A model generated the notes under the pieces. It was not told the DNA's origin. It did not search any database and worked only from the letters and a program-made list of their open reading frames with translations. DNA of 25,816 nucleotides. It comes from a virus. Location: positions 1-25,816 of IMG/VR virus record IMGVR_UViG_3300017917_004041; one strand, written 5' to 3'. Shown one piece after another: positions 3,806 through 21,793 of this stretch (its first letter is position 1; each line of letters begins with the position of its first letter). The position numbers and the translations under genes were made by a program.

Positions 3806-3837
3806 TTTGTAATTATCAAATAATTTTTGTATATTAG
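3806..3837 (+). promoter_or_regulatory. Bacteroidota-type promoter for the GIY-YIG gene
   Basis: TTTG at 3806-3809, a 20-base spacer and TATATTAG at 3830-3837 fit the Bacteroidota form (TTTG upstream, TAnnTTTG-like downstream box). The same two boxes with the same spacer length recur at 21163-21194. It directly follows a terminator and ends four bases before the start codon, so the transcript would be leaderless or nearly so. Confidence 0.6.
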
Positions 3838-3841
3838 TATT

Positions 3842-4222
3842 ATGAAAAAGTATTTTGTTTATGAGTTAATTAACTCAATGGGAACTATTGAACACGTTGG
3901 TGAAAGCACAAGACCATATGAAAGATTTGCAAATCATATAAAACATAAACCACATAAAAGGAGTGGAATTGGCAAGTTTTATGGAAGACAAGATTTAATA
4001 TTGAATATAGTTTCAGTATTTGATAATAAAAAAGAAGCATATGATTATCAAATAAAATTACAGAACTCGTATGGATTGAGAAATGATAATGATACATTGG
4101 GAGATAATCCAAATGAAACTAAATTAAAAATGAGTTTAGCTAAAAAAGGTAAAGCAAGACCACAATGGGTAAAGGACAAGATAAGAGCAACTATGCTATC
4201 TAAACATATAACTATTTATTAA
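3842..4222 (+). CDS. GIY-YIG-like homing endonuclease with NUMOD3-like tail
   Basis: I choose ATG 3842 (MKKYFVYEL) over an in-frame ATG at 3827, which lies within the promoter region; this gives 126 residues. The N-terminus fits a divergent GIY-YIG nuclease: YFVYELIN (first motif), EHVGES (second motif, HVG in place of YIG), then TRPYERFANH with the expected Arg. The segment KKEAYDYQIKLQNSYG supplies the downstream Glu. About residues 95-115 (NETKLKMSLAKKGKARP) resemble the NUMOD3 DNA-binding motif. Such free-standing genes spread by cleaving alleles that lack them. It sits alone between a terminator and the next structural gene with its own promoter, as expected for a mobile insertion in the head-tail module. 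The weak first motifs leave some doubt over activity. Confidence 0.72.
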   Translation: MKKYFVYELINSMGTIEHVGESTRPYERFANHIKHKPHKRSGIGKFYGRQDLILNIVSVFDNKKEAYDYQIKLQNSYGLRNDNDTLGDNPNETKLKMSLAKKGKARPQWVKDKIRATMLSKHITIY

Positions 4223-6442: not shown

Positions 6443-7855
6443 ATGGCAAGTATCATACACAATACAGGCACTAACAATACACTGTATTACAATATTTTAG
6501 ACTACTTTAGAACGATTATGGATAACCACCCATCAATCGAAGTAGTTACGCAAGGAGATATTAGTGATATAGATACAAGAGAATACCCAGCATATCCTTT
6601 GGGTAATGTAAATATATTAGGTTCTACATTCGGTATAAACTATACTGATTGGAGTGTTCAACTTATTATAGCGGACAAGATAAAAAATAAAAACAATGAG
6701 AGTGGAGATAGAACTAATGCACAGACTATTCCTTTCTATGGAGTAGATGATGTAGTTGATATTCACGCCAACACTCTCGCTATTGTAAATGATTTAACTT
6801 CTTATACACAAAGAAGTGTAGATGGATTTGAGATTAACGAAGATATTATCTGTGAACCATTTATGGACAGATTTAATAATGGGTTAGCAGGATGGGCTGC
6901 AACGTTTACTTTAACTGTACATAACGATAGAAACAGATGTCTTTTTGATTTATTTCCAGTTGCAGTAGAAAGTGGCTCAACAACCACTACTACAACTGCA
7001 GGACCTACTACAACTACAACTGCAGGACCTACTACTACAACAACAGCAGGACCTACTACGACTACTACTACATTAGCACCAACTACAACAACTACAACTA
7101 CTGCTGGTCCAACTACTACAACAACTACATTGGCTCCAACTACTACGACTACAACAACAATAGCACCTGGTACAGTTTGTTATCCATCTGCATCATTTAT
7201 AGTATCATCTGCTGAACCTGGTAATTTAGTTTATGGTTATAATGAATGTGATGGGACATATGTTCAAATAGCAATTGGTACATTTGATACAAGTATGAGT
7301 ATAAATTTAGATGCATGTTTTATTTCTGGTACTATTGTAGGTGTTGAAGGTGATACTATTTCAAATATTCAAATTTCAGGAAGTAGTTGTGGAACATATA
7401 CACCAACAACTACAACTACTACTACAACACTTGCTCCTAACACATTCTATTATGTAGTTGAAGGTGGAGAAAGTAGTGGTGGTGTATTAACATATAAAAA
7501 TCAAAATGGTAATTTTATAACTCAAAGTTTAGCTTCTGGTGAAACAGTTTTAATTGGAGTTATGGATAATGATATTGGTATAACCGGAGCAGGTTCTCAA
7601 ATATTTAATTCTGATATACCGTATGGTACTTCTTATACACCATCATCAAATTGTACAGCGTATGATATAACAAATAATAATGTTGGTACCGGTGGAGATA
7701 TTGTAGTATTCTATGTACCTTGCAATAGTTCATCTATATCATATAAATTTGTAGATACAGGTACAACAGATACAATGTGTGCATCTTATACAGGTTCAAT
7801 TGTAATTAAGAATTCACCTACTAATGTTGTATTAACACCTACTGGCACTTGTTAA
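6443..7855 (+). CDS. Tail-completion-like protein with Thr-rich linkers and surface modules
   Basis: The first about 178 of 470 residues look like a neck or tail-terminator protein (NTLYYNILDYFRTIMDNHPSI, then YPAYPLGNV, DWSVQLIIADK and a C-terminal WAATFTLTVHNDRNRC). The rest is not expected in that family. A Thr-rich linker of TTTTTAGP and TTTTTTLAP units (bases 6979-7170) leads to a module of about 78 residues with Cys pairs. A second short linker (7399-7440) leads to a C-terminal module of about 138 residues ending in a terminal Cys (VVLTPTGTC). The same linker type occurs in the gene at 11577. A natural reading is that exposed beta-sandwich modules hang from the neck by rigid mucin-like stalks, possibly binding cells or glycans. 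The fusion point is clear from composition; the role is inferred. Confidence 0.6.
   Translation: MASIIHNTGTNNTLYYNILDYFRTIMDNHPSIEVVTQGDISDIDTREYPAYPLGNVNILGSTFGINYTDWSVQLIIADKIKNKNNESGDRTNAQTIPFYGVDDVVDIHANTLAIVNDLTSYTQRSVDGFEINEDIICEPFMDRFNNGLAGWAATFTLTVHNDRNRCLFDLFPVAVESGSTTTTTTAGPTTTTTAGPTTTTTAGPTTTTTTLAPTTTTTTTAGPTTTTTTLAPTTTTTTTIAPGTVCYPSASFIVSSAEPGNLVYGYNECDGTYVQIAIGTFDTSMSINLDACFISGTIVGVEGDTISNIQISGSSCGTYTPTTTTTTTTLAPNTFYYVVEGGESSGGVLTYKNQNGNFITQSLASGETVLIGVMDNDIGITGAGSQIFNSDIPYGTSYTPSSNCTAYDITNNNVGTGGDIVVFYVPCNSSSISYKFVDTGTTDTMCASYTGSIVIKNSPTNVVLTPTGTC
6979..7170 (+). repeat. Thr-rich linker repeat region
   Basis: Six short units of five to seven Thr followed by AGP, LAP or IAP are encoded in tandem within the tail-completion-like protein. 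Thr codons alternate irregularly between ACA, ACT, ACG and ACC, so the protein repeat is far more regular than the DNA repeat. Confidence 0.85.
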
Positions 7856-7863
7856 AGTAAATT

Positions 7864-8244
7864 ATGAAAACCTTATCTGATGTTGCAAGTTTAATACGTA
7901 CTATTGCACAAACCAATTTAACTGTTGGTGATACTCGTGCTTACAAAACAGGTAACTTATACAGACAGATTGGTTCGTTTAACACATTAGATAGAATGAT
8001 TTCTAAATCAGGCAATCGTTCTACAATCAAATTATTTTATTCTCCAACAGATGCTGCTTATGGTAAATTTGTTGAAAAGGGAACATATAAAATGAAAGCG
8101 AGACCGTTTGCAGGAAATGCTGTATCTGACCCACAAGTTGCAACCGCTGTATCTGAATATCAAAACTCTGTTGTAGATGATATTAACAAAGATATATTTA
8201 AGCAAGTATCTGTATCTTTTAAGAGTTTAGGTAAAAAGAAGTAG
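7864..8244 (+). CDS. HK97 gp10-like neck/tail completion protein
   Basis: A 126-residue protein with the recognisable gp10-like core: SPTDAAYGKFVEKGTYKMKARPFAGNA (about 62-86), where 'VE-GT...ARPF---A' is the family signature. Two helices flank it: an N-terminal one (VASLIRTIAQTNL) and a C-terminal one rich in charged residues ending in KSLGKKK. Proteins of this family join head and tail after packaging. Position after the portal, connector and tail-completion-like genes agrees. The start at 7864 follows an AT-rich spacer of eight bases after the preceding stop. Confidence 0.72.
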   Translation: MKTLSDVASLIRTIAQTNLTVGDTRAYKTGNLYRQIGSFNTLDRMISKSGNRSTIKLFYSPTDAAYGKFVEKGTYKMKARPFAGNAVSDPQVATAVSEYQNSVVDDINKDIFKQVSVSFKSLGKKK

Positions 8245-8292
8245 TATCAAATACTTTTCCAAAAAAAGTGGTTATTAAATAAAAAAGATTAG

Positions 8293-9456
8293 ATGTCATT
8301 ATCAATAACACAAACACCCGCATCTTGCTCATTGGCTCAATCACCAATCGTATTTTCTGTAATTGAGAATACAGGTGTTGTAGCGAGTTCGTCATTTCAG
8401 TATATGGCGGATTTATACTATTGGACAGGTTCTTTAACAAACTCGTCATCAGTAGCAGATTATGTTTTAACAAAATATCCAAACACATCTCTTACTGGTA
8501 TTTTTGACTTTAATAGAATTATAAACTCTACACTTACAAGTTTAGCAATACAGAATACATCTAATGTAGAATATTTTGCAGCTGATTTCTATTGGCAGTA
8601 TCTTTCAGGTTCTACCTACGTTACTGGCTCACATGTTAAATCTAATACATATAAAGCATTAGATGGATATGCAATCTTTCAAGAACCAATAGGACAAGAG
8701 ATTTATAATAAAACCCCACACTGGCCTTTGATGAGTGATGGACCTGCTACTCAATCTGCTTTTGATTTTAATAAAGGTACTGCAGGAGTATATGTAGGTG
8801 ATGTAGGTACAACTACTCCAACTAAATTAGTTTATAGTTCTAATTTGGGAAGTGTAGATTACGCTTTGAGTTCTACAACAGCAACGACTGGACAGATTGT
8901 ACAATATCCAATTGGACCATCACAGAGTGGATTTCCTCTTTCAACATCAGGTTTACAATATTACACAATTCAGGCATACAATAACACAACTCCGTTAGGT
9001 ACTCCAATTACTTACAATATCGTATGTAATCAGAAATATCCTAACATTAGAATTAAGTGGAAAAATAGATACGGACAGTTTGATTGGTTTAACTTTAATA
9101 TGGTTAATAGACAATCATTCCAAACACAGACAAGAACATACCAACCACAATTAGGAAGTTGGGAAGGAAGTTCTTTATCATACAACAATTACGATAGTTC
9201 AACTCTAAATTATATTGCGGACTCAAAACAAGCAATCTCTGTAAATACTGATTGGATTTCAGAAGATTACAATGAGCTGCTTAAACAATTATTAGTTAGT
9301 GATGAAATCTATTGGATATACGATGAAAGTACAGGAGATTTAAGACCTATCACTATAACAACTCAATCTATTACCTTTAAGACAGGAGTAGTTGATAAAA
9401 CAATTCAATACGCATTTGATTTCAATTGGGGACAAGCATATAAACTAATAATATAA
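8293..9456 (+). CDS. Putative distal tail/baseplate structural protein
   Basis: A 387-residue beta-rich protein with no membrane segment. The N-terminal half is Ser/Thr-rich and resembles immunoglobulin-like or fibronectin-like sandwiches (FSVIENTGVVASSSFQY, GIFDFNRIINSTL). The C-terminal half contains a distinctive NIRIKWKNRYGQFDWFNF stretch and DWISEDYNELLKQLLVSDEIYWIYD, which I associate with tail tip (Dit-like) proteins encoded before the hub gene in Bacteroidota phages. It overlaps the next gene by one base (TAATG), so the pair is translationally coupled. The Dit assignment rests on position and style rather than a diagnostic motif. Confidence 0.55.
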   Translation: MSLSITQTPASCSLAQSPIVFSVIENTGVVASSSFQYMADLYYWTGSLTNSSSVADYVLTKYPNTSLTGIFDFNRIINSTLTSLAIQNTSNVEYFAADFYWQYLSGSTYVTGSHVKSNTYKALDGYAIFQEPIGQEIYNKTPHWPLMSDGPATQSAFDFNKGTAGVYVGDVGTTTPTKLVYSSNLGSVDYALSSTTATTGQIVQYPIGPSQSGFPLSTSGLQYYTIQAYNNTTPLGTPITYNIVCNQKYPNIRIKWKNRYGQFDWFNFNMVNRQSFQTQTRTYQPQLGSWEGSSLSYNNYDSSTLNYIADSKQAISVNTDWISEDYNELLKQLLVSDEIYWIYDESTGDLRPITITTQSITFKTGVVDKTIQYAFDFNWGQAYKLII

Positions 9457-11573
9457 TGGGTATTATATCTACACAAGGATTTAGTTTCAAGCTAATAGCC
9501 AATGGTGAGCAATTAGACCTATTCAAAGATGAAGAAATATTATTATCTGATAATGTTACTGGCCTTTTTGATTTGGGTATATTACCTGCTGACTTTACCC
9601 GCCAGATTACCTTACCAGGAACAAAGAAGAATAACGCCTTCTTTGAACACTACTACGATATTAGTGTAGATGAACCATTCTTATTTGCAACCAACACAAA
9701 GGTTGATGCCTATTTTGACTTTGATGGTATTATTCTTTCTGATGGGTATTTACAGTTAAATAAAGTAAATGTAATTGCGAATAAGTTTATTGACTCATAC
9801 GAAGTAACTATATTCGGTGGATTAAGTTCTTTTGCAAGAGATATTAACAGATACTTCCTTACAGATTTAACTTCTTCCCTTTCACAATACAATCACACAT
9901 CATCATTACAGAACATAACTGCGAGTTGGAGTGGAGACCTTTTTAACGGAGATATAGTTTATCCTCTTGCTGAATACGGACAGAAGATACTTTATACACC
10001 ACAAGAAAATCAATTTGGTATAGATACTCCTTCAGGCTCTCTTTCAGTGCAGGATTTCAAACCTGCAATCAGAATTAAGCCGGTATGGGATGCGATATTC
10101 GAGCAATATGGATATACATATACTGGCTCATTTTGGAATGAACCATTCTTAAATAATGTATATCTACTTTGTAATAACAAATTAAGATACCCTGTTTACG
10201 ATAGTATTGATTTAGAAACATACGGTTTATTTAAGATAGCACCTATTAGTGGCTCTGGTATGACGAATGTTTCATTACCTGCATCTTCAACTGATTATGT
10301 TTTACCTTGGTATAATATCCAATCTAATCCTGCTGGCAATCTAAATTCCAATACTGAATATACTTTGGACTTTGATACAAAATTAAGAGGTGAAATTAAA
10401 TTAAGTTATTTAGTAAATCCTGATAGTACAACATCAGCAGGTTATCCTTTATTTAACTTAAAAGTAAAAACATTATCAAATACAACTGTTGCTACAATAC
10501 CTCTTACGATTATAAATCAGTTTATGGAAGATACTTACACAGCAAATCTACCATATAACAGAGAAGAAAAGTTTGATGTAACTGCAGAATTTAATTGTAA
10601 TACTGTCATTCCTCCTGGCACTTATAGATTTTACATAGAATATACTTCAACAACAGGCGGTAGTGCACAATTTGATGTTGTTTTAGACCCTGATGGACAA
10701 CCTAAATCATATCTTGCAATTACAAAAGTAAATCAAGGTGGTGATGGATTAGTTCTAAACGTAGGTGAAAACTTACCGTATGGAACATCTGGTATTAAGC
10801 AGATTGATTTTATTACATCTGTACAGAAGAAATTTAATTTAGTAATATATCCATCTAAAACTAAATCAAGAGAGTTTATTGTTGAAGCATTTAACAAATG
10901 GTATAAAGAAGGAGAAGTTAAAGATTTTAACAAATACATCAATTTAGATGAGAAGATAGAAGTAATACCTGCTAACTCACTCGCTGTAAATGAATTAAAT
11001 TTCGGTGATACATTAGACCAGGATTATATTTCTCAACAGTTCTCTAAAGAAGCGAATAGAGAGTATGGTAAAACATATTACATAGATACTCAAAACTTTT
11101 TCTCACAAGGAAAGTTTGAGGTCAAAACTGGCTTTGCATCTTCACCATTGATATATTTAGCAGGAACAGGAACATCTGGCTCTGCTTTACCACAACCTGC
11201 ATATTCTGCATCTATTTCGGACTCAACTATTGGAAGTGATACAATTACTTGTTTAGGAAGTTCATATACGAATACAGTTAATAGAACTGTTGTTACTATT
11301 GTAGATAGCAACGGTACAACTGTAACTAACTTTGGTGCACCTGTTGTTGTGGTAGTTAGATACGATATTGGATTATGTAGTGGTGGAACATCAACAAAAG
11401 AAGAAACAATTACTGTTCCTTTTGGTGCTTCATCGGCATATTTAGATTATTATTCAACTGCGTATGTTGATTGTGGTTCATCACCTTGTACAACAGAAAC
11501 ACAAACAATAGATTGTGTAGTTTCAGTTTCACCTGGAGCTATTTATGCATCATCATCAATATCAGCTTGTTAA
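9456..11573 (+). CDS. Tail hub protein, N-terminal part, with Cys-rich terminal module
   Basis: A 705-residue protein. The N-terminus (GFSFKLIANGEQLDLFKDEEILLSDN, then GILPADFTRQITLPGTKKN) is typical of hub or tail-tip proteins in Bacteroidota phages. The middle includes KPAIRIKPVWDAIFEQYGYTYTGSFW and a QKKFNLVIYPSKTKSREFIVEAF segment that fit the hub of such tails. About the last 130 residues are a separate Cys-rich beta module (CLGSSY, CSGGTST, VDCGSSPC, terminal C) closely related to the end of the next protein. The next gene begins in the same reading frame after only the TAA and one codon. Its N-terminus looks like the missing C-terminal part of this hub. This suggests a single ancestral hub gene split by insertion of the module and stop. 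Confidence 0.68.
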   Translation: MGIISTQGFSFKLIANGEQLDLFKDEEILLSDNVTGLFDLGILPADFTRQITLPGTKKNNAFFEHYYDISVDEPFLFATNTKVDAYFDFDGIILSDGYLQLNKVNVIANKFIDSYEVTIFGGLSSFARDINRYFLTDLTSSLSQYNHTSSLQNITASWSGDLFNGDIVYPLAEYGQKILYTPQENQFGIDTPSGSLSVQDFKPAIRIKPVWDAIFEQYGYTYTGSFWNEPFLNNVYLLCNNKLRYPVYDSIDLETYGLFKIAPISGSGMTNVSLPASSTDYVLPWYNIQSNPAGNLNSNTEYTLDFDTKLRGEIKLSYLVNPDSTTSAGYPLFNLKVKTLSNTTVATIPLTIINQFMEDTYTANLPYNREEKFDVTAEFNCNTVIPPGTYRFYIEYTSTTGGSAQFDVVLDPDGQPKSYLAITKVNQGGDGLVLNVGENLPYGTSGIKQIDFITSVQKKFNLVIYPSKTKSREFIVEAFNKWYKEGEVKDFNKYINLDEKIEVIPANSLAVNELNFGDTLDQDYISQQFSKEANREYGKTYYIDTQNFFSQGKFEVKTGFASSPLIYLAGTGTSGSALPQPAYSASISDSTIGSDTITCLGSSYTNTVNRTVVTIVDSNGTTVTNFGAPVVVVVRYDIGLCSGGTSTKEETITVPFGASSAYLDYYSTAYVDCGSSPCTTETQTIDCVVSVSPGAIYASSSISAC

Positions 11574-11576
11574 ATT

Positions 11577-13538
11577 ATGGCATACAGTGCAATATACATA
11601 CCTACATTTATTAGTTCGGTAACTTACCAACCAGCTAGAGTTCTGCCACATATTTATTTTTACAATGGAACAAGAGAAACTGATACATGGTATTTGGAAG
11701 GGTTTAATACAAACTCTACTTCTTCCGTTAGAGTTCATCCTTCTACTATATTCCCTTATTTTGACAATTATAGTGGAAACACACCTACTACTTCATCACT
11801 TTCATTATTATTTAATAACGAAGCCGCAGTATATGGTGAAGCACCTACTGCATCTTTATATCAGACATATTGGGAAACCTATGTGTCTTTACTTTATAAC
11901 CCAAAAACGAGATTATTAAATTGTTCTGCAATAATTCCTCTTGCTGACTATTTTAAGATGGAATTGAATGATATAGTTAATTTTAGAGGAAACTATTATC
12001 ATTTAAGAGCAATAAACGATTATAACTTATCAACAGGTGAATGTAATTTACAGTTGTTAGGACCAATAATTAAAGGTACATTAGATGGAAGTATTGTTCC
12101 ACCTGGACCTACTACAACTACAACTACTACAACAGCAGCACCAACTACTACAACTACTCTTGCTCCTACAACTACGACAACGAGTACAACGAGTACAACT
12201 ACTACTGCTGCACCTACAACAACAACTACATCTACTACAACAACACTTGCTCCTACTACTACAACTACGACAAGTACAACTACAACGGCTGCTCCAACAA
12301 CTACAACCACAACGAGTACAACAACTACAAGTACTACGACTACAACTGCTGCACCTACTACTACAACCACAACTACAACTTATATCACTAAATATTTAGT
12401 TGAGTTATGTGGAGGTGGAATTGGTCCATATATCGTAACTTTAGGTAGTGGTGATACTCCATCAGGAATTGGACAAGCATTTAAGATAAGTGGTAATTCA
12501 GGTGCTGGATTTAATGGTACTAACTGTTGGGAAGTTTTAGAAATTGACCCAATTGGAAATGTTGATTACGCAAACCTTGCATTTGGTTCTGTATTTAGTA
12601 ACTGTACTGATTGTAATAATACAAATACAACTACAACTACATCTACAACATCTACAACTACGACAACAGCGGCTCCAACAACCACTACGACAACAAGTAC
12701 TACGACTACTACAACCACTGCTGCACCTACAACCACAACAACTACAACTGCAGCACCAACTGTATATGCATGGGATGCAACTGTGGTAGATAATACATCA
12801 CACTCATCAAGCTGTACTTTACCGTACACTACAACTTATTATACAACAACTAACGTTCCAATTCTGAATACAACTATAATTTATTTAGACTCGGCATTAA
12901 CTACAACGTTAAATGGTGGTGATGGATTTGTTAAGATGAAGAGAACAGGTATTACAAATGAATATTCAGTAAGAGTTAATTCATCTGGTTTAGTGACAAG
13001 AGTAACAGTTTGTCCTGTTACAACTACAACTACATCTACGACAAGTACAACAACTACGACAACAACTACTACGGCTGCACCTACGACTACAACAACGACT
13101 ACAACCGTTGCACCAACTACTACAACAACTGCAGCACCAACTATTTATTATGTATCTGCTGATGATGTATATGAAGGAGCATTTGATGTAAACTGTTTAG
13201 GAGTTGATTATTATGGTGGATTAGTTGTTTATAGATTAGTTGCAACACTTAAAGATGGTTCAGGAAATACAATAACTAACTCAACCGGAACACCGATATA
13301 CACTAATGTTAATTTTGAAACAAATCCTTGCTTTGGTGGAACATCAACCGGTTCAGTACAAATTACAATACCAACAGGAGGACAGACTGGTTCATATACA
13401 TACTACTCACAAAACGTAGTAGATTGTGGAACTTCAGTTTGTGCATACGAATACGAAACAGCATTATGTGTAACATCATTGAGTGGTAGTGGATTAACAT
13501 TACAAATCGCAAGCGGTTCAGATTATACTTATTGTTAA
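11577..13538 (+). CDS. Tail hub C-terminal part fused to Thr-rich stalk and modules
   Basis: The first about 165 of 653 residues (PHIYFYNG, TIFPYFDNYSG, LYNPKTRLLNCSAIIPL, NFRGNYYHLRAINDYNLSTG) look like the C-terminal domain normally found at the end of a Bacteroidota phage hub protein, not like a fibre start. Then come three Thr-rich stalks (12111-12380, 12621-12761, 13018-13140) made of T runs broken by AAP, LAP, VAP and single Ser. They separate three compact modules with Cys residues. The second module has a YLDSALTTTLNGGDGF segment known to me from other phage appendages. The last module is a relative of the end of the upstream protein and ends in Cys. The architecture suggests a beaded, exposed and possibly glycosylated receptor-binding structure at the tail tip. 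The receptor is unknown. Confidence 0.66.
   Translation: MAYSAIYIPTFISSVTYQPARVLPHIYFYNGTRETDTWYLEGFNTNSTSSVRVHPSTIFPYFDNYSGNTPTTSSLSLLFNNEAAVYGEAPTASLYQTYWETYVSLLYNPKTRLLNCSAIIPLADYFKMELNDIVNFRGNYYHLRAINDYNLSTGECNLQLLGPIIKGTLDGSIVPPGPTTTTTTTTAAPTTTTTLAPTTTTTSTTSTTTTAAPTTTTTSTTTTLAPTTTTTTSTTTTAAPTTTTTTSTTTTSTTTTTAAPTTTTTTTTYITKYLVELCGGGIGPYIVTLGSGDTPSGIGQAFKISGNSGAGFNGTNCWEVLEIDPIGNVDYANLAFGSVFSNCTDCNNTNTTTTTSTTSTTTTTAAPTTTTTTSTTTTTTTAAPTTTTTTTAAPTVYAWDATVVDNTSHSSSCTLPYTTTYYTTTNVPILNTTIIYLDSALTTTLNGGDGFVKMKRTGITNEYSVRVNSSGLVTRVTVCPVTTTTTSTTSTTTTTTTTTAAPTTTTTTTTVAPTTTTTAAPTIYYVSADDVYEGAFDVNCLGVDYYGGLVVYRLVATLKDGSGNTITNSTGTPIYTNVNFETNPCFGGTSTGSVQITIPTGGQTGSYTYYSQNVVDCGTSVCAYEYETALCVTSLSGSGLTLQIASGSDYTYC
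12111..12380 (+). repeat. Long Thr-rich linker repeat region
   Basis: About 90 residues of almost pure Thr, broken by AAP or LAP every 5-15 residues and occasional single Ser. This is the longest stalk in the window. Related tracts in the same gene lie at 12621-12761 and 13018-13140. Synonymous Thr codons are mixed throughout. Confidence 0.85.
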
Positions 13539-13549
13539 AATAAAAGGTT

Positions 13550-14491
13550 ATGAAACAAATTAGATTTTTATGTGCCCAACCTGCTTCTAAATACTACGAA
13601 TGGCAAGTTGAGGTAATGTTAAACAATTTTATGGAAATGGGAGTAAATCCCAATTGGATAGATATTGTTTGTTGGAAAGTAGATGGTGAAGTACCACAGA
13701 ATTGGAGTAGATTAGCAGAAAAATATCCTGCTCGTTTTTTCTTTTATGATGATAAGAGAGAAACAAAACACTACATCAGTTCAATCAGACCCAACATCAT
13801 CAAACAACATTGGCAGGCTCATCCTGAATTGATGGATGAAATCATCTTTTATCACGACTGCGATATACTCTTTACCAAACCCATAAATGAGTGGATTACA
13901 GAGGATATGCTCAACGATAATAATTGGTATGGTTCTGATACACGCTGGTACATTTCACACTCTTATATCAAAGGAAAAGGGGATGATATAATGAATAAGA
14001 TGTGTGAGATTATGCAGTTGGATGAAAAACTAATTGAAGATAACGAATTAAACGCAATTGGTGCTCAATACCTGATGAAAGGATTGAATTATCAGTTTTG
14101 GCATAGAGTAGAAAAGGATAGTGAAAGATTGTTTAAGGAAATAACAGAATTAAATAATCAAAAAGTAGCCGAAGACCCTAACTACCACACATTACAAATA
14201 TGGTGTGCAGATATGTGGGCAGTTCTTTGGGGTGGATGGAGAATGGGTAAAAATACAATCTGCCATCCTAACTTTAACTTTAGTTGGGGCACATCAAATG
14301 AATTGGACTGGTTGAATAATAATATAATGCATAATGCAGGAGTTATTTCATCGCATGAAGGTCTGTTTTACAAAGGAGAATGGATTAGTGAATATCCTTA
14401 CGGAAAAGAATTAGATATAAAAGAAAACACTGCGAGTAAAAGATATTGGGAATGGGTACAGAAGGTTGGTGAAAAAACAGTATTAGTATGA
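13550..14491 (+). CDS. Glycosyltransferase-like protein, GT-A type with DxD
   Basis: A 313-residue soluble protein that looks like a GT-A glycosyltransferase. The N-terminus (RFLCAQPASKYYEWQVEVM) and the metal-binding motif YHDCDILFTKPI (DCD at 103-105) are in the usual order. The late WCADMWAVLWGGW and HPNFNFSW segments complete an acceptor side. The YxWQ element, the DxD with following 'P' and the late Trp/Met-rich segment remind me of peptidyl hydroxyproline/serine O-glycosyltransferases; this resemblance is by eye only. It follows the Thr/Pro-rich tail gene by 11 bases and has a good AAAAGGTT ribosome site. A protein-glycosylating role on the stalks is therefore an attractive inference; modification of host surface glycans is the alternative. 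It overlaps the next gene by 4 bases (ATGA). Confidence 0.62.
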   Translation: MKQIRFLCAQPASKYYEWQVEVMLNNFMEMGVNPNWIDIVCWKVDGEVPQNWSRLAEKYPARFFFYDDKRETKHYISSIRPNIIKQHWQAHPELMDEIIFYHDCDILFTKPINEWITEDMLNDNNWYGSDTRWYISHSYIKGKGDDIMNKMCEIMQLDEKLIEDNELNAIGAQYLMKGLNYQFWHRVEKDSERLFKEITELNNQKVAEDPNYHTLQIWCADMWAVLWGGWRMGKNTICHPNFNFSWGTSNELDWLNNNIMHNAGVISSHEGLFYKGEWISEYPYGKELDIKENTASKRYWEWVQKVGEKTVLV

Positions 14492-15009
14492 TAGAGAAAA
14501 TAATATCAGAGAACCCAGAAAACCATTGGAGATTTCTTAATTGTGAGAATAAAATAGTAATGGATATGGGATGCTCATTTTGGGATAGTAGTTGGAATGA
14601 TGGATGGTTATCATCAGCTCAATATTTTGTTTCTAAAGGTGCTTCTAAACTAATCGGTTTTGATTGTGCTATGCAGGATATTATCAGATACAATGAAATG
14701 TATAATGGTGATGCCAAATGGGAGATATTCCATTTATGTGTAGATAACGAACTACAATTAAGAGAACTGATAGAAAAATACCAACCACAGGTAATCAAAT
14801 GTGATATAGAAGGAGCTGAAATATATTTTGATAACATAGAAAAAGAAGTTATGGAATGTGTAGATGAAATTGCGATTGAATATCACAATGAGCCAACAAG
14901 AATAATGTGTGAAAATAAAATAAACGAATGGGGATTTAATAACAGTCAATTTTACCAATTAGGTGAATATGACATAAACTACGTAGGAGTATGGCATCTT
15001 TGGAGATAA
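14488..15009 (+). CDS. FkbM-family SAM-dependent methyltransferase
   Basis: A 173-residue class I methyltransferase. Motif I is KIVMDMGCSFWDSS (about 22-35, with the D-G-C turn that binds SAM). An acidic residue after strand 2 (LIGFDCAMQ) fits ribose contact. The strand 4 motif QVIKCDIEGAE (104-111) is the hallmark of the FkbM family, which O-methylates sugars or polyketides. It is short for the family (about 200-250 residues) but keeps the core. It is coupled to the glycosyltransferase-like gene upstream by an ATGA overlap and to the gene downstream by a 19-base overlap. The three probably act on one glycan, for example capping a sugar by methylation. Substrate is unknown. Confidence 0.72.
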   Translation: MIEKIISENPENHWRFLNCENKIVMDMGCSFWDSSWNDGWLSSAQYFVSKGASKLIGFDCAMQDIIRYNEMYNGDAKWEIFHLCVDNELQLRELIEKYQPQVIKCDIEGAEIYFDNIEKEVMECVDEIAIEYHNEPTRIMCENKINEWGFNNSQFYQLGEYDINYVGVWHLWR

Positions 15010-15872
15010 AAAAAGCAACTTATGGTGGTGCAGATTGTACCGAAATCATCAAATCAAAAATAAAGGGTGATACATTGATTTTAAGAGTAGATAATTCTAT
15101 AATGGGTGATACTCTCGTTGGACAGGTAAAGTTCCTTGAGATTGAAGGAAAAGTGGGTGAAATGGAATTTAATGAGAGAGTTAGAGAAGGAGATGTATTT
15201 AGGATGCCAAAATCTACAAATAAAAGATTGGGTATTTGGTATTCAAATGACCAGACAGGTCATCCTTGCATAAAAAAATCGTTAGAAAGCATAGAAATCG
15301 CCTCACAAAATAAGGCTGATATAATCACTTGTGTATGGAATAGGGTAGAAAACAACCCTTTTCATGAAATAATTAGTTGGAATAGAAGTTCATCTCATCT
15401 CAACCAATTATTACAGATACTACAATGCATATTTACTGCGAGAACGATGGGTAATTACGATTATGTTTCATTTTTGGAACACGATGTAATGTACGGTGAA
15501 GGATATTTTGATTTTCCAGAGTTTGAAAAAGGAGAAGTTTGGACAAATATGAATTATGGTGGGATAAATAGAACAGGTTGGCAGAACAGAAATCAGAACG
15601 ATGAACCGATGCACCAAATGACAATGAGAATGGAAGATGCATTAGAGCATTTTTTAGGTATATTAGATAACGCATTGGTGACAAATAGTGGAATGATTGA
15701 GGACCAGAGATTGATTAGAAAACAATGGCATGCACCAAACCAAAGTATTCATATAAATCACGGTTCTCACTTTACATCTCACTTTACAATATACGATACT
15801 GAAGATACTTACAAAGAGCATATGTATTGGGGAAAGCATAACGATTACCTTTACTTATTTAATAACGAATAA
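14991..15872 (+). CDS. DUF3395-like domain fused to glycosyltransferase-like domain
   Basis: Residues 1-55 (KKATYGGADCTEIIKSKIKG, VDNSIMGDTLVGQVKFLEI) fit the DUF3395-type beta domain, which in bacteria often accompanies glycosyltransferases. The remaining 235 residues look like a GT-A-like enzyme: ADIITCVWNR (about 109-118), DYVSFLEHDVMYGEGYFDF with an acidic EHD at 163-165 in the DxD place, then NYGGINRTGWQ and a C-terminal INHGSHFTSHFTIY. I choose 14991 because the DUF3395-like domain needs this start, although it overlaps the methyltransferase by 19 bases; a GTAGGAGT sequence just before the ATG serves as ribosome site. It probably extends or edits the same glycan as the two preceding enzymes. 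Family assignment is by eye. Confidence 0.58.
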   Translation: MASLEIKKATYGGADCTEIIKSKIKGDTLILRVDNSIMGDTLVGQVKFLEIEGKVGEMEFNERVREGDVFRMPKSTNKRLGIWYSNDQTGHPCIKKSLESIEIASQNKADIITCVWNRVENNPFHEIISWNRSSSHLNQLLQILQCIFTARTMGNYDYVSFLEHDVMYGEGYFDFPEFEKGEVWTNMNYGGINRTGWQNRNQNDEPMHQMTMRMEDALEHFLGILDNALVTNSGMIEDQRLIRKQWHAPNQSIHINHGSHFTSHFTIYDTEDTYKEHMYWGKHNDYLYLFNNE

Positions 15873-21433: not shown

Positions 21434-21793
21434 ATGGCACACAAAGAAGAATTAAAACAGATTGAGGGATTTGAAAACTATTATGTATCTGATACAGGTA
21501 ACATATATTCCTCACACAGAATTCAAAATGGTGAATACAAATTAGTAAAACCATCAAAGAACAAATCAGGTTATCTTTACGCAAACATCTTCTCATCACC
21601 ACAAAAGAGAAGTTCACTCCGTATTCACAGATTAGTATATCAGGCATTTGTAGGATGCATTCCTGAAGGATTTGTTATTGACCATAAAAATGGTGATAAA
21701 AAGGATAACAGAATAGAAAACTTACAGATACTAACACCGCAAGAGAATACATTAAAATATCACAGAATTGACAAACAAAGAAAAAGAAACTGA
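21434..21793 (+). CDS. NUMOD4-HNH homing-type endonuclease
   Basis: A 119-residue protein with the NUMOD4 motif at the N-terminus (IEGFENYYVSDTGNIYSSHR, about 10-29) followed by an HNH_3-type nuclease: GYLYANIF, RIHRLVYQAFVG (His65), then FVIDHKNGDKKDNRIENLQIL (about 80-100) with the Asp-His, Asn and Asn-Leu signature. Such free-standing genes are mobile and home into related phages. It follows a strong terminator and has an AT-rich upstream region; a possible TTTG box at 21368 lacks a convincing second box at the right distance. A near-copy of the start region lies just upstream (21411). Family assignment is confident; homing activity is inferred. Confidence 0.87.
   Translation: MAHKEELKQIEGFENYYVSDTGNIYSSHRIQNGEYKLVKPSKNKSGYLYANIFSSPQKRSSLRIHRLVYQAFVGCIPEGFVIDHKNGDKKDNRIENLQILTPQENTLKYHRIDKQRKRN

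Follow-up and report, generated by a model that had tools for sequence, protein, structure and literature searches.

Threonine-rich tags of phage proteins are gained and lost together with a predicted phrog_4417 glycosyltransferase: a candidate system for virion O-glycosylation

Why would a phage encode proteins with long threonine (Thr) stalks directly in front of genes for sugar-transferring enzymes? This question is raised by the linear virus record IMGVR_UViG_3300017917_004041, whose whole stretch of 25,816 bases is called the window here and which carries one series of structural genes. An original prediction from its sequence had proposed a virion O-glycosylation cassette that acts on Thr stalks, and this core claim is supported by our analysis. 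We consider it highly probable that the locus encodes a tag-and-enzyme system, in which a first transferase, GT1, attaches the initial O-linked sugar to Thr tracts and further enzymes build on it. The features concerned are the following:

6443..7855, + strand: second stalked protein, with an N-domain of about 175 residues, a Thr stalk and a C-domain
6971..7168, + strand: Thr stalk of the second protein, with TTTTTAGP / TTTTTTLAP repeats; presumed acceptor
11577..13538, + strand: main carrier, with an N-domain of about 170 residues followed by an alternation of three Thr stalks and small domains
12102..12398, + strand: carrier Thr stalk 1; presumed acceptor
12612..12770, + strand: carrier Thr stalk 2; presumed acceptor
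12993..13142, + strand: carrier Thr stalk 3; presumed acceptor
13550..14491, + strand: GT1, a phrog_4417 member with a predicted GT-A fold and D103-x-D105; proposed initiating Thr O-glycosyltransferase
14488..15009, + strand: MT, a putative class I S-adenosylmethionine (SAM) methyltransferase with FkbM-like motifs; proposed glycan O-methyltransferase
14991..15872, + strand: GT2, with a lectin-like N-part of about 75 residues, then a predicted GT-A domain with E163-H-D165; proposed glycan extender

The open reading frames (ORFs) at 6443-7855 and 11577-13538 indeed encode two Thr/Pro-stalked proteins whose stalks are broken by AAP, LAP or AGP. The coordinates also confirm two coupled or overlapping transferase genes that flank a methyltransferase gene 3′ of the larger stalk gene. 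Between the carrier gene (11577) and the tape measure gene (16022), GT1, MT and GT2 form a coupled operon; GT1 starts 11 bases past the stop of the carrier gene, and the overlap is 4 bases (ATGA) between GT1 and MT and 19 bases between MT and GT2. Thr makes up 175 of the 268 residues of the four stalks, the rest including Ala, Pro, Ser and the breaks. Such stalks could be functionless slippage products of an ACN repeat, as their triplet-like composition and the arrays reported there by Tandem Repeats Finder might suggest. However, the repeat units match each other at just 61-87%, and the Thr codons of the stalks are mixed (ACA 79, ACT 72, ACG 17, ACC 7), broadly like those in the other genes counted (ACA 205, ACT 153, ACG 16, ACC 30) with a mild difference towards more ACG in the stalks (chi-square p = 0.015). 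Because the codons are mixed and the units match poorly, the stalks are not a trivial DNA repeat. Slippage is also contradicted by the in-frame position of the tracts at C-termini or between domains and by their tie to GT1 described below, so that we give it practically no credence.

The carrier N-domain is common to stalked and stalkless relatives, which allowed us to compare both. Relatives were collected with the stalk-free first 173 residues; the best 80 of 215 were kept, and the 52 loci that are contiguous from carrier to tape measure form the co-occurrence set. Under a first, strict tag rule (15 Thr in 24 residues), 21 loci carry stalk and GT1, 29 neither, two GT1 only and none a stalk only. 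Transferase genes are thus not equally common without stalks: all 29 GT1-negative carriers are stalkless, and GT1 accompanies every one of the 21 stalked ones. A looser post hoc rule gives 23 loci with both and 29 with neither, with zero exceptions. The 28 carrier loci without a tape-measure match downstream contain, under the strict rule, seven with both, 11 with neither and ten with a stalk only; each of these ten breaks off no more than 1,419 bases from the carrier ORF. A tag rule based on a regular expression (regex), applied to all 80 loci, yields 28 with both, two with GT1 only (L093, L126), ten with a tag only, most of which are truncated contigs, and 40 with neither. Homologues of the second stalked protein, compared by their N-domain, carry a stalk in 7/50 GT1-positive and 0/25 GT1-negative loci, a difference that we do not regard as significant by itself (Fisher p 0.09 under the strict rule and 0.046 under the looser one).

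The joint occurrence reflects repeated change. On a tree of 53 carrier N-domains (the 52 loci and the window), the GT1 label changes six times, and at least four changes are forced by well-supported branches. L133 has an N-domain almost identical to those of L139, L141 and L145; it carries a C-part that looks Ig-like by eye and no GT1, whereas L145 has a TTTTTTTTSTSTTTT stalk directly followed by GT1. Given these near-identical N-domains, stalk and GT1 seem to have been swapped as a unit onto one protein. The exchange of the C-part between L133 and L139, L141 and L145 also has the look of modular swapping of a surface part.

GT1 is widespread in phages. When 50,697 phage records were searched in translation with GT1, 74 matched, none of them reaching 60% identity; their hosts include Lactobacillus, Enterococcus, Staphylococcus, Lactococcus and Chryseobacterium. 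Bacillota prophages carry homologues as well. We examined 14 of these 74 records (seven, then seven more), and all 14 annotated phages carry a Thr-rich tract in the fetched stretch, mostly at the C-terminus of a major tail or capsid protein. Tagged proteins include the tail proteins of phiFL1A, VPE25 and SA2, Orf50 of bIL285, capsid and tail proteins of iLp84 and the capsid protein of 4995_1. The tagged orf13 of Lactococcus phage 1706 and orf51 of LP65 are recorded as particle parts, since their depositors named them ‘major structural protein’ and ‘structural protein 2-D,MS’. The tag sequences differ by lineage (TTTTTAAP, (TS)n, TPTV, TETQTQ, TTVKP, TTVAPTTVKP) and the richness in Thr is constant.

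Tail-tube proteins, collected by their untagged part, repeat the pattern of the carrier family. Among the bIL285- and phiFL1A-type proteins (46 and 14 loci, many of them near-copies), 14 have a Thr tail and GT1, 46 have neither and none is discordant; here the regex rule adds one tag, in a 48-residue reverse ORF of the GT1-negative L185. With a profile built from Bacillales prophage tail proteins, two overlapping sets of 397 genomes yielded 35 copies. All 35 were fetched, and six have a Thr tail and GT1, 29 have neither and again none is discordant; in the six loci GT1 begins 7-16 bases past the tagged tail-protein gene. The Bacillales tree, for which the 12 most distant copies were dropped and 23 retained, shows five label changes, at least three of them forced by well-supported branches, and the phiFL1A-type tree (14 rows), where the GT1 label also stood for the tag in line with the counts above, shows two, again both forced. 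Under the looser rule, the independent pairs on well-supported branches (four carrier, three Bacillales, two phiFL1A-type) all point in the same direction; under the strict rule, 3.5 of the four carrier pairs agree on average and none is opposite. The 9/9 pooled pairs give a two-sided sign test p of 0.004, and no single tree reaches 0.05. Joint gain and loss of tag and GT1 occurs in several protein sets and in two phyla.

This distribution bears on three further explanations. First, tag and GT1 could move as one module while GT1 glycosylates another target in the particle or the cell and the stalks serve as unmodified spacers. The carrier stalks do separate small domains, the glycan on the stalks is deduced, and PHROGs assigns no activity to GT1. 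However, the tag of most Bacillota prophages and of phiFL1A, bIL285, VPE25 and 1706 is just a C-terminal tail, with no domains to hold apart, and is still tied to GT1, and tag sequences vary widely while Thr richness persists; we therefore regard the spacer explanation as unlikely. Second, GT1, MT and GT2 could alter the host surface so as to mask receptors or exclude superinfecting phages, and their place in the tail operon would then be accidental. Phage enzymes of that kind exist, according to the available part of PMC12619734, and LP65 has another sugar-transferase-like gene nearby; against this, the same enzyme is found in hosts with very different envelopes (Bacteroidota and Bacillota), its gene often comes immediately after those for capsid or tail-tube proteins, and the tagless relatives of these proteins are without it, which makes such a role quite improbable. 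Third, as some phage glycosyltransferases do (same partial source), GT1 could glucosylate modified bases in phage DNA, an idea that we find hardly tenable since its neighbours are mostly structural genes and not genes of nucleotide metabolism, it is linked to Thr tags, and prophages have it too. Slippage, DNA glucosylation and host-surface alteration were rejected on the codon mix, the structural neighbourhood and the link to Thr tags.

What kind of enzyme is GT1? It matches the phrog_4417 profile over its full length (E 2e-60; residues 5-306 of 313, profile positions 2-291 of 293). This family, ‘prophage pi2 protein 34’, is listed in PHROGs without a function, and its annotation carries no link to Thr tags; the same label is borne by the GT1 homologues in VPE25, VFW and P1046. 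The acidic motifs named in the original prediction, DCD at 103-105 of GT1 and EHD at 163-165 of GT2, are both present and invariant in our alignments (D103 and D105 in 50 sequences; E163, H164 and D165 in 27), and structure models and fold searches of the products of 13550 and 14991 likewise bore out the GT-A-like nature of both transferases. The GT1 model, built from 50 sequences, has a predicted local distance difference test score (pLDDT) of 97 and a predicted template modelling score of 0.93. A Foldseek search gave 112 PDB matches at E ≤ 0.001; all 50 matches listed are glycosyltransferases, and the best solved ones include UGGT, LgtC, XXYLT1 and glycogenin. VIA-align gave Z 14.7 for glycogenin (root-mean-square deviation (rmsd) 3.6, 229 aligned), 14.3 for LgtC, 13.9 for UGGT and 13.2 for GlyE of S. 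pneumoniae. In its model GT1 thus resembles GT-A enzymes of the GT8/GT24 kind, its DxD is invariant, and its nearest solved folds are GT8/GT24 enzymes (glycogenin, LgtC, UGGT); it is like these enzymes and GlyE in fold and DxD, while sequence identity is about 6-13%. Glycogenin puts sugar on a protein side chain, and GlyE acts on a Ser-rich adhesin. Hydroxyproline/serine O-glycosyltransferases, of which GT1 had first been thought reminiscent, are not among its listed matches in Pfam, Foldseek or VIA-align, and no such enzyme was compared directly. The chlorovirus PBCV-1 transferase 2p72, which glycosylates the capsid in another virus class, is a low-ranking fold match of both GT1 and GT2 (rank 49 and 40).

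The genes that follow GT1 are less constant. MT has the motifs D-M-G-C and IKCDIEGAE and matches several methyltransferase families weakly. The FkbM family of Pfam (PF05050) does not match the window MT and finds four of 13 relatives weakly (best E 0.018); Methyltransf_31 matches five of the 13 (best E 0.0012). Neither MT nor GT2 has a clear PHROG or Pfam family match. A GT2 model from 27 sequences (pLDDT 90) predicts a GT-A domain from about residue 76. Residues 75-257 superimpose on 6p61 (Z 15.2, rmsd 2.6, 166 aligned), with IspD-type nucleotidyltransferases close behind (Z 13.9), and BoGT6a is the top Foldseek match. The N-part (residues ~1-75; 14991-15215) resembles rhamnose/galactose-binding lectin (SUEL/RBL) repeats at the sequence level, with whole-chain matches to 5h4s (5.7e-15 as a sum over three repeats, 0.006 for the best of them) and CSL3 (3.6e-10); SUEL_Lectin of Pfam finds two of 21 GT2 members (best 0.066). 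As a lead, this part might be a carbohydrate-binding module and might bind an already sugared stalk.

Among 86 distinct GT1 loci from the GT1 and carrier N-domain searches, the genes 3′ of GT1 include a GT2 family member in 40, one of the MT family in 25, a Glycos_transf_2 enzyme in 17 and a radical SAM/SPASM enzyme in 10; Gly_transf_sug, GT25 and methyltransferase genes form smaller groups. Several Bacillota phages have GT1 as a lone enzyme gene amid structural genes. Moreover, a GT2 scan of viral_contigs gave four matches, three of which (L083-L085) have no detected GT1 in the locus, so that GT2 is not strictly tied to GT1. The expected co-occurrence of all three genes with stalks therefore holds for GT1 and fails for MT and GT2: only GT1 is tied to the tags, and the other two belong to a variable set. 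The variation of the 3′ genes and the occasionally solitary GT1 fit a role of GT1 as initiator and of the others as decorators, an order that these patterns leave unproven. A radical SAM/SPASM enzyme, present after GT1 in L030 and nine other loci, is an odd partner for a glycosylation cassette.

GT1 relatives also occur in bacterial genomes, where a scan with the GT1 profile found 46 loci. The regex detects a Thr/Ser run in 35 of these and misses the tracts of L242 and L259; typical tag sites are the C-terminal ends of a protein of ~205 residues just before GT1 and of a protein of ~390 residues about 2 kb upstream. The other nine loci are L245 and eight on Bacteroidota chromosomes, and seven of these eight encode longer proteins (509-571 residues); two of these seven were scanned with Pfam and showed Glyco_transf_7C at the C-terminal end, one above and one below the cut-off. 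L247 (7279-12828) adjoins a C39-peptidase exporter and an apparent radical-SAM protein (cysteine motifs by eye), and both L244 and L247 adjoin LANC-like proteins (weak matches). One product of the L244 cluster (7138-7836, 8949-11704) has a leader of double-glycine-like type and a Thr-rich tail, TTTEWEGYPTTSEYPESTTEFAGGTTTEF. Exported peptides are thus the probable targets of these cellular relatives, and this speaks for a peptide as the acceptor of GT1. The presence of GT1-like/Glyco_transf_7C proteins in peptide-export clusters of Bacteroidota is possibly the sign of a glycosylated-peptide pathway.

Several observations weigh against GT1 acting on the tags. L126 and L142 are GT1-positive and tagless under the strict rule; they carry weaker Thr/Ser tracts (TSTTTQ/TSTTTT), which the looser rule, devised afterwards, accepts. 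The GT1 search, of which 80 loci were kept, left 32 without a stalk in view under the strict rule. Eight of these show Thr or Thr/Ser tracts in the locus, and the records of the other 24 were searched whole: 17 have no run of seven Thr codons, all of them records of at most about 30 kb, and seven have one, with in-frame stalk proteins in 8/8 stretches from six of these seven. The eight Bacteroidota chromosomal loci and a delta-proteobacterial one (L245) have no oligo-Thr tract nearby, save a weak one in L244. The window GT1 protein has no match above the cut-off to any Pfam glycosyltransferase, GT8 included, and the best score among 50 members is a single Gly_transf_sug match (E 0.014). Furthermore, glycan, donor sugar and enzyme activity are read from genes and predicted folds, and the neighbour association could stem from transfer of a module of tag and transferase whose parts act on different things. 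Apart from these points, other stalk types occur in GT1-bearing phages, built of (TS)n or (TPTV/TPTA)n and not of poly-Thr (L032 850-5884, L033, L071; L041 8542-9969), so that the acceptor rule may be Thr/Ser richness and not one motif.

How might the system work? We infer that Thr-rich tails or stalks on some virion proteins would be the acceptors, and that GT1, usually encoded beside or near the tagged protein, would move the first sugar onto Thr (and Ser) of the tracts. Because its predicted fold is that of GT8/GT24 enzymes, which belong to the retaining mechanism class, GT1 would most naturally be expected to use a nucleotide sugar and to form an alpha linkage. In the window phage, GT2 may lengthen the glycan by another sugar, possibly guided by the lectin-like N-domain of GT2, and MT may methylate the glycan. 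A single GT1 could serve several tagged proteins, and the benefit to the phage could be shielding of the virion, solubility of the stalks or altered surface binding. On balance we also think it likely, if less firmly than the action of GT1 on Thr tracts, that phrog_4417 is one protein-O-glycosyltransferase family of Bacteroidota and Bacillota tailed phages, which recognises portable Thr-rich tags fused to any virion protein to be coated. In Bacteroidota phages it would head variable sugar-enzyme islands that diversify the coat, and its bacterial relatives would sugar exported peptides.

Glycosylation of virions as such is known from mycobacteriophages (Che8, Corndog, Myrna; Freeman et al. 2023, as covered in the accessible parts of PMC12363180, PMC12619734, PMC11652166 and PMC11600133). 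According to the portion of PMC12619734 at hand, their own transferases put O-glycans on capsid and tail-tube subunits, at the C-termini, and an excerpt of PMC11600133 places three transferase genes of cluster O phages downstream of an O-methyltransferase gene. Like the window, these phages thus combine transferases with a methyltransferase gene, which qualifies the novelty first claimed for the cassette. However, gp108, gp109 and gp110 of Che8 are unrelated to the GT1 profile (hhalign probability under 1%) and belong to other families; gp110 is GT25-like and gp108 a GT2-methyltransferase fusion. Oligo-Thr tracts are absent from the capsid and tail-tube proteins of Che8, and its transferase genes lie far from the structural genes, unlike the window cassette. 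Systems of this general kind are thus known, whereas enzyme family, acceptor tag and phage groups are not described together in the literature searched. Thr-tag glycosylation in phages is likewise described nowhere in that literature, outside of which most subscription papers fall; in PMC6669764, on the Lactobacillus phages Semele to Bromius, ‘threonine’ and ‘glycosyl’ appear nowhere in the text.

The stalked products are presumably virion proteins, judging by their position between the portal/neck genes and the tape measure gene. The remaining structural genes of the window are:

2182: capsid-like gene
4631: portal gene, with connector genes after it
7864: neck gene
9456: 705-residue product, between the neck gene and the stalked carrier
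16022: tape measure gene, 3′ of GT2
24542: large terminase gene, at the far end of the window

The product of 17892-19055 matches head-maturation-protease profiles, yet it lies 3′ of the tape measure gene, far from the portal and capsid genes. Two small ORFs, 3827-4222 (GIY-YIG-like) and 21434-21793 (HNH-like), have motifs that we take to be those of homing endonucleases.

Overall, tag and GT1 are present or absent jointly in viruses whose bacterial hosts differ greatly, which offers a function for the widespread phrog_4417 family. If true, this would provide a sequence rule for predicting particle glycosylation, both the phages that have it and the proteins that bear it. Predicted glycosylation in phages of Enterococcus, Staphylococcus and Lactobacillus bears on structural proteomics and on the behaviour of particles in animals, because mycobacteriophage particle glycans lower antibody binding, as stated in the available sections of PMC11652166 and PMC12363180. 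Moreover, the variable enzymes after GT1 suggest that environmental phages diversify their coat.

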